This document shows, in pieces, positions 4,016 through 15,978 of a stretch of DNA of 25,724 bases (within the stretch, counting starts at the first letter, position 1; each line of letters opens with the position of its first letter). The notes under the pieces are model-generated. The model was not told the DNA's origin. It made no database searches and saw only the letters and a program-made list of their open reading frames with translations. The position numbers were made by a program, and so were the translations under genes. The stretch is taken from the IMG/VR virus record IMGVR_UViG_3300032334_000128, positions 1 to 25,724 of that record; one strand, written 5' to 3'. Source of the DNA: a virus.

Positions 4016-4210
4016 ATGGATAAGAAAGAATATCATATAGAGACAGAAACTGTTACAGTAATAAAGAATAAAAAAACAGGATACATCTATAAAGACGAAG
4101 AAGAACTTAAAGCTGCAAACGTTGATAATAATGATATCAGTCGTGATGTTGTAGTTAAAGTTACTAATAAAGGATTAGAAGTATTTAAGAAATTTATGAG
4201 TGAAAAATGA
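4016..4210 (+). CDS. Small charged protein of unknown function
   Basis: This 64-residue protein (MDKKEYHIETETVTVIKNKK...) is acidic and basic by turns, with a beta-like N-terminal half (EYHIETETVTVIKN and GYIYKDEEEL) and a C-terminal Lys-rich helix (LEVFKKFMSEK). It lacks a signal peptide or membrane span. It starts four bases after the 44-residue membrane protein gene, and its stop TGA overlaps the start of the glycosyltransferase gene as ATGA, so the two are probably translated together. I do not recognise a family. Its coupling suggests a role linked to the glycosyltransferases, but this is inference from spacing alone. Confidence 0.6.
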   Translation: MDKKEYHIETETVTVIKNKKTGYIYKDEEELKAANVDNNDISRDVVVKVTNKGLEVFKKFMSEK

Positions 4211-5139
4211 AACCTAGAGGTGGTACAGAATTACAATTTGAGTTTTTAGAAAAACATGTAAATAAAGATTTGCTTGATCAAGTGCAAATATGTACATCCG
4301 TTCCTGGTAAAGTTCCATTAGATCCAAATAAAGTAAATATACTTTGGCAAAAGAATTCATATGATCAACCAAATTTAGCACCTTGGTTTCAAGATAAATC
4401 TAATCATAATAAATACGATTGGTATGTATTTAACTCACATTGGAATTATGAAAAGTTCAGAATGTATTTTGATATACCAACTGAAAAATGTATTGTTATA
4501 AAAAATGGTGTAGTACCAATAGTTCCAAGGACCAGACATGTAAAAGGTGATCCTATTAAACTTATATTTCATCCAACTCCATGGAGAGGTTTAAATGTCA
4601 TTCTAGCTGCAATGCAACTTGTTAAGAATCCTCTCATTAGTTTAGATGTTTATTCATCAACTGAAGTATATGGAGATGCCTTTAAACAAGCTAATGATGA
4701 TGCATATAAAGATTTATATGAACAAGCTAGATCTTTACCTAATGTAAATTACATTGGTTACAAACCTCATGAATATATAAGAGAGAATTTAAATAAATAT
4801 CATATCTTTGCTTTTCCAAGTATCTGGGAAGAAACATTTTGTATATCAGCATTAGAGGCAATGGCAGCAGGTCTTTATTGTATTACAACTGATTATGGTG
4901 CTTTGTATGAAACAGGTGCAGAATTTATTACATATGTTCCATACGAGAAATCATTTACAAGTTTAGCGAATAAGTTTGCATTTGCAATTGAGCATGCAGC
5001 AGGGACCTTGGATCACCCATCAATCAGACAGCATTTAGATATGCAAATAGATTACACAAATAGATTTTATAACTGGAATAAGATTGGTTATGCATGGACT
5101 AAATTCTTGGAAGGAGCAATTAATGCAAGACGCAAGTAG
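4207..5139 (+). CDS. Glycosyltransferase, family 4-like (GT-B fold)
   Basis: The 310-residue protein shows the hallmarks of GT4 retaining glycosyltransferases. GGTE (residues 5-8) is the N-terminal donor-loop motif. VFNSHW is followed by IKNGV in the linker to the second domain, and HPTPWRGL matches the usual S-x-x-x-x-KG-strand region. The E-x7-E signature is WEETFCISALEAMAAG with Glu209 and Glu217. It is short for the family (350-400 is usual) because the first beta-strand normally preceding GGTE is missing; an in-frame stop at 4201-4203 shows this is the true start rather than a mis-annotated one. It would transfer a sugar from a nucleotide-sugar to an unknown acceptor: DNA, virion protein or host surface glycan are all possible. 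The start overlaps the previous stop (ATGA) and the end overlaps the second glycosyltransferase by 17 bases. Confidence 0.8.
   Translation: MKPRGGTELQFEFLEKHVNKDLLDQVQICTSVPGKVPLDPNKVNILWQKNSYDQPNLAPWFQDKSNHNKYDWYVFNSHWNYEKFRMYFDIPTEKCIVIKNGVVPIVPRTRHVKGDPIKLIFHPTPWRGLNVILAAMQLVKNPLISLDVYSSTEVYGDAFKQANDDAYKDLYEQARSLPNVNYIGYKPHEYIRENLNKYHIFAFPSIWEETFCISALEAMAAGLYCITTDYGALYETGAEFITYVPYEKSFTSLANKFAFAIEHAAGTLDHPSIRQHLDMQIDYTNRFYNWNKIGYAWTKFLEGAINARRK
5111..5116 (+). promoter_or_regulatory. Ribosome binding site deciding the start of the second glycosyltransferase
   Basis: AAGGAG lies six bases before ATG 5123 and inside the end of the upstream glycosyltransferase gene. It favours 5123 over an in-frame ATG 39 bases earlier, at 5084, which has no comparable site. 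Confidence 0.65.
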
Positions 5140-5995
5140 ACCTATATGGTTTAAGAAAGAAGAAATTAAAACAGAAATTATACAGACACAACAAACAGAT
5201 AGTTTTGATTTTAAAAATATAACTTTATTGGTTGCAACTCCAGTCCATTCTGAAGTATCTATTCATTACGCTGAATCATTATTAACATTACAAGGAATGG
5301 GTCATTCTTTAGGACTTACAATAGATTTTTTATTATTAAAATCATCTTTAGTGACACAAGGTAGAAACTTATGTGTAGCTAACTTTTTAAATAAAAAAGA
5401 ATATACACATATGTTGTTTATAGATTCTGATATATCTTTTGATCCATCTTCTGTAGTTAAATTATTAAAATGTAATAAAGATGTTGTTTCAATTCCATAT
5501 CCAATGAAAACTATAAATTGGAATAAGTTACATGGTAGAATTAAAGATGATAAAAATATTAGTATAGAAGACTTATCTAGATCTGGTTTTACATATCCAA
5601 TAAAAGTAGAGGATCAACAAAGCATAACTGTTAGTAAAGGTGTTATGGAAGTAACTCATGCTCCAACTGGATTTATGCTTATTAAAAAAGAAGCTATTTT
5701 AAAGATGATTGAAAAATATCCTAATCTTAAAATTAAACAACCTACAATAATTAATGGTGAAACAAAAGATACTGAGAATCTATGGAATTTCTTTGATACT
5801 TGGTTTGATCAAGAAACAAATAAATACTATGGAGAAGACTTTGCATTCTGTCAAAAATTCAGAGATATTGGTGGAAAATGCTATTGTTACGTTGATGATT
5901 TTATTACTCATGTTGGAGAATATTCTTATGAAGGTAAGTTTATTGATGAATTAATAAATACAAGAAAGATTGACGATTCCAATAAAATCAAGTAA
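5123..5995 (+). CDS. Glycosyltransferase, family 2-like (GT-A fold)
   Basis: From ATG 5123 the product has 290 residues. ITLLVATPVH near residue 33 is the first Rossmann strand. MLFIDSDISF holds the DxD-type metal and donor-binding motif (Asp101, Asp103) and is followed by the DVVSIPYPMK strand. APTGFMLIKK and the later YYGEDFAFCQKFRDIGGKCY provide the usual acceptor-site Asp/Glu (ED) and the loop before a conserved VDDFITHVGEYSYEG His-containing end. This combination matches GT2-like proteins found in many large and marine phages. The enzyme would act in the cytoplasm on nucleotide-sugars; the acceptor is unknown. It overlaps the GT4-like gene by 17 bases, so the two are probably made together and may act in sequence on one glycan. 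The 52 bases after it hold a possible leader ORF. Confidence 0.75.
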   Translation: MQDASRPIWFKKEEIKTEIIQTQQTDSFDFKNITLLVATPVHSEVSIHYAESLLTLQGMGHSLGLTIDFLLLKSSLVTQGRNLCVANFLNKKEYTHMLFIDSDISFDPSSVVKLLKCNKDVVSIPYPMKTINWNKLHGRIKDDKNISIEDLSRSGFTYPIKVEDQQSITVSKGVMEVTHAPTGFMLIKKEAILKMIEKYPNLKIKQPTIINGETKDTENLWNFFDTWFDQETNKYYGEDFAFCQKFRDIGGKCYCYVDDFITHVGEYSYEGKFIDELINTRKIDDSNKIK

Positions 5996-14886: not shown

Positions 14887-15459
14887 ATGGAAGTACTTGT
14901 ACATAAACATTTAATTATTAGAGCGGAAGCAAAAAATCCTCCTATGGATGAAACTGTTCTTACGGAATGGTTTAAGAAATTTATAAAAGAAATTGGAATG
15001 AAGGTTATGATGGGACCATACGTAAAGTATTCTCATATGATTGGGAATCGCGGTATTACAGGTGCTGCAATTATTGAAACATCACATATAGTAATGCATG
15101 TTTGGGATGAACCTGACCCCGCCTTGCTTCAGTTTGATGTTTACTCTTGTGGTGAATTTGATCCTGAAACAATATGTGAAAAGATAAAGAAAGATTTTAA
15201 TACAACAAAAATAGAATACAAATTTTTAGATCGTGAAAATAATTTAAGTGAATTACATACTTTAACTTATACTGATCCAATAGTTAAAAACTATGAAAAT
15301 AAAGAAATAGAAAAGAAAAATAATGCATTATTAAAAAGTAGAAAAGAAGTTGAGATTAATGGTAGCGGAACTCATGGATATAGAATTAAAGAGGGTATTC
15401 ATAAAGGCACAGTTCTTGGCCATATTACAAGAGAAAAATCAGTACTTGAAAATCAATAA
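14887..15459 (+). CDS. speD: SpeD-type pyruvoyl-dependent decarboxylase (S-adenosylmethionine decarboxylase family proenzyme)
   Basis: The 190-residue product matches the short bacterial/archaeal AdoMet decarboxylase family over residues 1-120. AdoMet decarboxylase makes decarboxylated AdoMet, the aminopropyl donor for spermidine. GITGAAIIETSHIVMH holds the self-cleavage site: Ser66 would become the pyruvoyl group and His71 is the processing His. QFDVYSCGEFDP holds Cys88, the catalytic proton donor. Against the Thermotoga enzyme the Ser-to-His spacing (5) is kept, the loop to Cys is two residues longer, and Thr58 replaces the usual processing Ser. A charged extension of about 65 residues after residue 125, ending in GTHGYRIKEGIHKGTVLGH, is not part of the usual core. 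No speE is visible, so host spermidine synthase would be needed. Some SpeD homologues decarboxylate arginine or ornithine instead, so the substrate is open. Confidence 0.8.
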   Translation: MEVLVHKHLIIRAEAKNPPMDETVLTEWFKKFIKEIGMKVMMGPYVKYSHMIGNRGITGAAIIETSHIVMHVWDEPDPALLQFDVYSCGEFDPETICEKIKKDFNTTKIEYKFLDRENNLSELHTLTYTDPIVKNYENKEIEKKNNALLKSRKEVEINGSGTHGYRIKEGIHKGTVLGHITREKSVLENQ

Positions 15460-15475: not shown

Positions 15476-15518
15476 CCACAGGTTGCATCATGTGGATGGA
15501 CCTATTAACTTGCTTAAC

Positions 15519-15525
15519 AAAGGAG
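15519..15525 (+). promoter_or_regulatory. Strong ribosome binding site of hsp20
   Basis: AAAGGAG stands six bases before ATG 15532, the best Shine-Dalgarno sequence in the window. It fixes the hsp20 start at 15532 and argues against the in-frame ATG at 15490. Confidence 0.75.
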
Positions 15526-15531
15526 ATAATA

Positions 15532-15978
15532 ATGACTTTTAATTCATTATTCCCAAATAACGGTTTACTTGATGTAAACAAATTACAAAAAGAAATATTC
15601 AATGGATCAACAAAGTTTTTTGATGATGCCTTTGAAAATATTTTTGACACGTGGTCAAAAGTACAATCATTTCCATTCTATAACGTAGTAAAATACTCAA
15701 AAGGTAAATACGGTTTAGAAATCGGTTTAGCTGGCTACAATAAAGAAAACGTACTTGTAGAAGTTAAAGATGGTATCTTAACAGTAGAAGGAAAAGTGGA
15801 AGATAAGAATGTAGACTACGTACAAAAAGGTCTAGCATTCAGAAAATTCTTTAAACAGTTTGAATTAGCTAAAGATACAGTAGTTGATGAAGCTGAAATG
15901 AAGGATGGATTACTTAAAATTAAATTTGGTTTTAATGAACCAAAAGAAATTGAAGGTGTTAAAATAGAGGTAAAGTAA
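15532..15978 (+). CDS. hsp20: Small heat-shock protein, Hsp20/alpha-crystallin family
   Basis: The 148-residue product has an N-terminal aromatic/hydrophobic arm (residues 1-48: SLFPNNGLL, KFFDDAFENIFDTW). The alpha-crystallin domain runs from about residue 49 to 133 (YGLEIGLAGYNKENVLVEV, then GILTVEG at 81-87). FRKFFKQFELAKD and AEMKDGLLKIKF (121-132) correspond to the A-x-x-x-n-G-x-L signature. The short C-terminal end has IEV at 145-147, the I-x-I/V motif that links subunits. Proteins of this family are ATP-independent holdases that keep unfolding proteins soluble. Cyanophages and other marine phages often carry one, presumably to protect virion or host proteins during infection. The very strong ribosome site suggests high expression. 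It is the last plus-strand gene before the convergent helicase. Confidence 0.9.
   Translation: MTFNSLFPNNGLLDVNKLQKEIFNGSTKFFDDAFENIFDTWSKVQSFPFYNVVKYSKGKYGLEIGLAGYNKENVLVEVKDGILTVEGKVEDKNVDYVQKGLAFRKFFKQFELAKDTVVDEAEMKDGLLKIKFGFNEPKEIEGVKIEVK

Follow-up and report, generated by a model that had tools for sequence, protein, structure and literature searches.

SpeD of the pelagiphage HTVC201P (AXH71538), a SpeDA-type arginine decarboxylase, was the closest biochemically characterized relative identified for the protein described here. The purified enzyme is a pyruvoyl L-arginine decarboxylase with a kcat/Km of 290 M-1 s-1; neither ornithine nor lysine was measurably decarboxylated, and the enzyme did not restore spermidine in E. 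coli (PMC9992855). A substrate shift in pelagiphage SpeD is already published (PMC9992855). Phage relatives of SpeD also include ornithine decarboxylases, UCP01 acts on both ornithine and arginine, and the SpeD proteins of S-PM2 and P2559S were validated as AdoMet decarboxylases (AdoMetDCs) (PMC9992855). The processing and catalytic residues of T. maritima AdoMetDC are S63, H68, and C83, and SpeDC ornithine decarboxylases carry diagnostic Gln, Thr, Phe, and Tyr residues (PMC10407285). Fusions of SpeD have been described in bacteria as SpeD-SpeDC proteins, in which both halves are SpeD-type enzymes (PMC10407285). The gene analyzed here is a different kind of fusion, since SpeD is joined to a small module of phage origin that gives no indication of being an enzyme.

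The gene lies in a stretch of 25,724 nucleotides from a virus (IMG/VR record IMGVR_UViG_3300032334_000128), called the window below, and its parts are listed in Table 1. The proteins of the window were closest to those of the Pelagibacter phages HTVC027P, HTVC023P, and 023Pt_psg01, with identities to HTVC027P/HTVC023P proteins of 67% for the DNA polymerase and 62% for a structural protein. We assign the window to an HTVC023P/HTVC027P-like pelagiphage, and from its phage relatives we infer a SAR11-type host. In the window, the large structural gene is separated from the helicase by a 73-aa ORF, the SpeD fusion, and an Hsp20 gene, in that order. HTVC023P and HTVC027P have neither speD nor an annotated Hsp20 gene at this place, and a search of the whole records found no SpeD domain in either phage. 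The Hsp20 family gene is listed at 15490-15978, but it probably starts at the ATG at 15532, which follows AAAGGAG, rather than at the listed 15490. Elsewhere in the window, positions 4207-5995, amid the structural genes, hold two ORFs, of which one encodes a group 1 glycosyltransferase (PF00534) and the other has no Pfam match.

Table 1. Positions in the window of the fusion gene and its parts
Feature	Position	Strand	Basis or remark
speD-phrog_32989 fusion gene	14887..15459	+	ATG to TAA, 190 aa; ORF list, Pfam, PHROG
SpeD catalytic domain, aa 1-125	14887..15261	+	AlphaFold2 model and fold match
Predicted beta chain (aa 1-65), then start of alpha chain; SpeD domain	14887..15261	+	
Thr58 codon	15058..15060	+	Position of T. 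maritima Ser55
Ser66 codon	15082..15084	+	Predicted self-cleavage site (T65/S66) and source of the pyruvoyl group; invariant column
His71 codon	15097..15099	+	Invariant in alignment; equivalent of T. maritima His68
Cys88 codon	15148..15150	+	17 residues past His71; equivalent of T. maritima Cys83
Captured tail module (putative), aa 130-190	15274..15456	+	Alignment with free ORFs, catalogue of copies
Tail motif RKEVEINGxGTxGYxIKEGxxKGxV, aa 152-176	15340..15414	+	Near-invariant in aligned free and fused copies

The enzyme half was recognized by both profile and structure. Pfam AdoMet_dc (PF02675) matched aa 20-116 (E=5.6e-17; score 62.5 bits, cut-off 25), and PHROG 3125 covered aa 5-125 in a PHROG profile search. 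AlphaFold2 modeled the domain with a pLDDT above 90 over about residues 11-110, and the best solved-structure matches of this model were T. maritima AdoMetDC (1tmi/1tlu), including the S63A mutant, with a probability of 1.00. The window protein shares with the T. maritima enzyme the predicted fold and the processing Ser, His, and Cys, Ser66 being the equivalent of Ser63, but the T. maritima enzyme has a loop two residues shorter, a Ser at position 55, and AdoMet as substrate. Ser66, His71, and Cys88 were invariant across the SpeD alignment; these three residues and Thr58 stand where a previous reading of this DNA from sequence only had placed them.

That sequence-only reading had also proposed that Thr58 is an altered processing residue, which did not hold. 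The counterpart of Thr58, eight residues before the processing Ser, was Thr in every subfamily member compared, and two validated AdoMetDCs, those of S-PM2 and P2559S, likewise have Thr there, as does the arginine decarboxylase of HTVC201P. Because these validated enzymes share the Thr, it is uninformative on failed processing, and altered or failed processing was rejected as an explanation for Thr58. The claim of a loop before Cys88 that is two residues longer was true relative to T. maritima. The distance from His to Cys was 17 in the window protein compared to 15 in T. maritima, S-PM2, P2559S, and phiYS40, and it was also 17 in HTVC201P and in nearly all the phage and cellular relatives compared; one divergent relative (L212) had 15. 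The two extra residues thus mark the whole subfamily, HTVC201P included.

A shift away from AdoMet, as had been suggested from the sequence, was supported by comparison with HTVC201P SpeD, the nearest characterized relative, which is a proven arginine decarboxylase without AdoMetDC activity in vivo (PMC9992855). The two proteins are alike in fold family, in the Thr at -8, in the 17-residue loop, in pelagiphage context, and in the signature GNxGxT...IETSH...WDE..P...QxDVY[ST]C. They differ in that HTVC201P SpeD is 122 aa long with no tail and is 37.6% identical to the window protein, and the HTVC201P gene adjoins ribonucleotide reductase genes, whereas the window gene precedes Hsp20. The nearest SpeDs in the phage collection were those of HTVC115P, HTVC103P, HTVC104P, and HTVC109P, with about 50% identity over the SpeD domain and no tail; in a residue-by-residue comparison, those of HTVC103P, HTVC109P, and HTVC115P had the same loop and Thr as the window protein. 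In the SpeD tree, the window protein, HTVC201P, and marine cellular relatives were split from four validated AdoMetDCs (S-PM2, P2559S, phiYS40, and T. maritima) with a support of 100/95, the branches to these four being very long. The window protein and HTVC201P fell into the same large group, inside which the cellular and phage branches were weakly resolved.

These results bear on the possibility that the core is an ordinary AdoMetDC that supplies a spermidine synthase of the host or another source. Membership in PF02675 is compatible with such an enzyme, and most of the phage SpeD homologues in the collection were from cyanophages, as found with an approximate cyanophage-type SpeD query, with S-PM2 SpeD as a validated case (PMC9992855). 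However, the window protein lies outside the validated AdoMetDC group, and the four validated AdoMetDCs lack the two extra loop residues. The window protein also scored 55.9 bits against TIGR03330, the NCBIfam equivalog for bacterial AdoMetDC, below its cut-off of 75.65. Neither the window, for which this had been pointed out before, nor 14 related contigs, the majority of them possibly fragments, yielded a spermidine synthase (PF01564) in a search that gave a match in 11 of 14 control genomes. Also, the genes of SAR11 hosts include a homologue of homospermidine synthase (PMC9992855). An ordinary AdoMetDC is thus a very improbable identity for the core. According to PMC10407285, one Pro is fully conserved among AdoMetDCs. 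The two candidates for this residue, one before G-V-S-G and one in WPE, are both missing from the window protein, and the second is missing from phiYS40 as well.

A less remote alternative, though still a doubtful one, is that the core uses its pyruvoyl group to decarboxylate L-ornithine, or both ornithine and arginine, which would give putrescine directly. Several freshwater phage SpeDs that were described as HTVC201P-like are ornithine decarboxylases, with UCP01 using both substrates (PMC9992855), and HTVC201P itself was placed inside the ornithine decarboxylase clade in another study (PMC10407285). The low identity between the window protein and HTVC201P also leaves room for a different substrate and counts against our main reading, in which the putative substrate is carried over from that homologue. 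On the other side, phage arginine and ornithine decarboxylases form separate well-supported clades (PMC9992855), and the 17-residue loop and the signature are common to the window protein and the arginine decarboxylase of HTVC201P. No labeled ornithine decarboxylase sequences were found in the phage collection. Since the related phage enzymes include ornithine decarboxylases and a dual enzyme, and since HTVC201P has been grouped with ornithine decarboxylases (PMC10407285), we place arginine ahead of ornithine as the likely substrate, with a pyruvoyl-dependent arginine decarboxylase as the most likely identity of the core. The enzyme half is probably a further substrate-shifted pelagiphage SpeD, of a kind already published.

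Agmatine, the product expected from arginine, would be usable in SAR11 because these hosts encode a homospermidine synthase homologue and enzymes that lead from agmatine to putrescine; their PLP-dependent arginine decarboxylase is clustered with AIH/NCPAH or arginase/agmatinase (PMC9992855). Agmatine deiminase was not found in the window or in the 14 related contigs, most of them possibly fragments. Close cellular relatives with the longer loop were seen in marine gammaproteobacterial contigs (L174-L183, L211, and others, including Thioglobus), and these are a possible source of the phage gene. No polyamine genes were recognizable beside the cellular relatives when their neighborhoods were read by eye. 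One contig filed as Thermoplasmatales archaeon SG8-52-3 (L203, LSSG01000033.1) looks like a misbinned phage contig, with the gene order of the window: speD, a small Hsp20-like ORF, a minus-strand helicase, and Pam3-type genes.

The second half of the protein matched PHROG 32989, a small phage family of unknown function, over aa 138-175 (E=5e-8, profile search). Members of phrog_32989 occur as free proteins of about 54-65 aa, such as AGE60573 of HTVC011P, and the tail is homologous to them over RKEV-NGxGTxGYxIKxGxxKG. A scan of viral contigs returned fused copies as well as free ORFs of 64-66 aa starting MIERLKDLIAKNF..., which align over the whole length of the tail and share the motif with it. 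The module is free in those phages, whereas in the window it is fused, with a linker in place of its first ~8 residues. By these alignments, aa ~130-190 correspond to a complete small phage gene that is fused in frame to speD. The charged tail of about 65 residues that had been described earlier is therefore real, at ~60-65 residues, but it is a phage gene in its own right, fused in frame, and not a loose extension. The tail is basic (predicted pI 9.3) and the enzyme part acidic. AlphaFold2 modeled the last 60 residues at a pLDDT of ~45-60, and this low-confidence model gave no clear fold match, with viral-library matches only at E >= 0.28. We rejected the tail as a separately translated internal ORF, as the fusion junction of the window lacks an in-frame start codon (ATG, GTG, or TTG).

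The surroundings of the free copies were also examined. In one contig (L053), a 135-aa SpeD is followed 34 bases downstream by the free gene with its own AGGAG site, and the same order, with a free phrog_32989-type gene directly behind speD, was found in L041 and L125. Of 57 loci, 28 had the free gene directly behind a PF11351-type holin, and 9 more had it behind phrog_2524, an ORF of 125 aa, with some of these loci being on the same contig; in L034 the phrog_2524 ORF adjoins a lysozyme. Cultured pelagiphages carry a distant free copy, for example next to DNA maturase A in HTVC011P and EXVC020P. The place behind holins suggests, by association only, a late role for the phrog_32989 module. Near the holin region of one fused phage, an ORF (L319, 1770-2207) reads by eye as a LAGLIDADG-type homing endonuclease. 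Six speD genes (L026, L030, L035, L050, L053, and L121) end in the same peptide, YDELGY, with the surrounding DNA TATGATGAATTAGGATATTGA, and such endings occur with or without a fused tail. A ribosome site for the next gene was considered as a possible reason for these endings. The unfused SpeDs of L048 and L052 have a cysteine-rich end, CGCDSCKCK, possibly another small C-terminal addition.

The tail was present in 30 coding sequences from relatives of the window gene. In fused genes, the median dN/dS was 0.17 for the tail compared to 0.06 for the enzyme; these are simple pairwise estimates, and many SpeD pairs were near saturation. A dN/dS of ~0.17 indicates purifying selection on the tail. 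None of the six contigs that carry both the fusion and a PF11351 holin (G001, G002, G003, G004, G006, and G014) had a second copy, and the free gene was absent from the holin surroundings inspected in fused contigs. Five contigs with an unfused speD (G007, G017, G018, G020, and G021) had one free copy each. The exception was L034, on the 10.6-kb contig G015, which had one fused and one free copy, so the rule of one copy per phage is not absolute. The fused and free states look like alternatives. On the SpeD-domain tree, fused and unfused forms were interleaved, and the fused label needed 14 changes, at least 4 of them forced by well-supported branches. These changes imply that the module was gained or lost repeatedly or that SpeD domains were swapped under the module.

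Another explanation for the fusion is a neutral read-through accident, with the tail as tolerated baggage that has no function while attached. The low-confidence model of the tail and the many close relatives whose SpeD lacks it would fit an accident of this sort. Purifying selection on the tail in fused genes, the many fused contigs with several different linkers between SpeD and tail, and the lack of a second, free copy in the six holin-bearing fused contigs all speak against it, and we regard it as improbable. Random read-through was likewise disfavored by the dN/dS and the conservation of the tail.

We therefore consider it probable that the protein is a pelagiphage-type core, most likely an arginine decarboxylase, with a captured phrog_32989 tail that is kept by selection. 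The proenzyme would be a pelagiphage-type class 1b SpeD homologue with a predicted T. maritima AdoMetDC-like fold. It would cleave itself between Thr65 and Ser66, with Ser66 becoming the pyruvoyl cofactor, and this cofactor would most likely serve, in infected SAR11-type cells, to decarboxylate L-arginine to agmatine. Host enzymes may then turn agmatine into putrescine and homospermidine. The fusion may have arisen by loss of the stop codon and intergenic region, which would have joined the phrog_32989 gene in frame to speD, and the tail module would remain on the larger, alpha chain after self-cleavage. A more specific idea, which we hold to be unlikely, is that the tail acts late, in lysis or packaging, and that the fusion couples polyamine supply to the end of infection or steers the decarboxylase to the partner of the tail, with recombination switching between the free and fused states.

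No earlier report of a SpeD-phrog_32989 fusion was found in the literature searched, which does not prove that none exists, and the fusion of SpeD to a captured small phage protein appears to be unreported. Under the reading favored here, the known pelagiphage polyamine enzymes extend to the HTVC023P-like group, whose cultured members HTVC023P and HTVC027P lack speD. The small phage protein phrog_32989 is also tied physically to an enzyme for the first time. Some phages have the module as a free gene behind the holin and close relatives have it fused to SpeD, so its function can be tested by comparing these two states.
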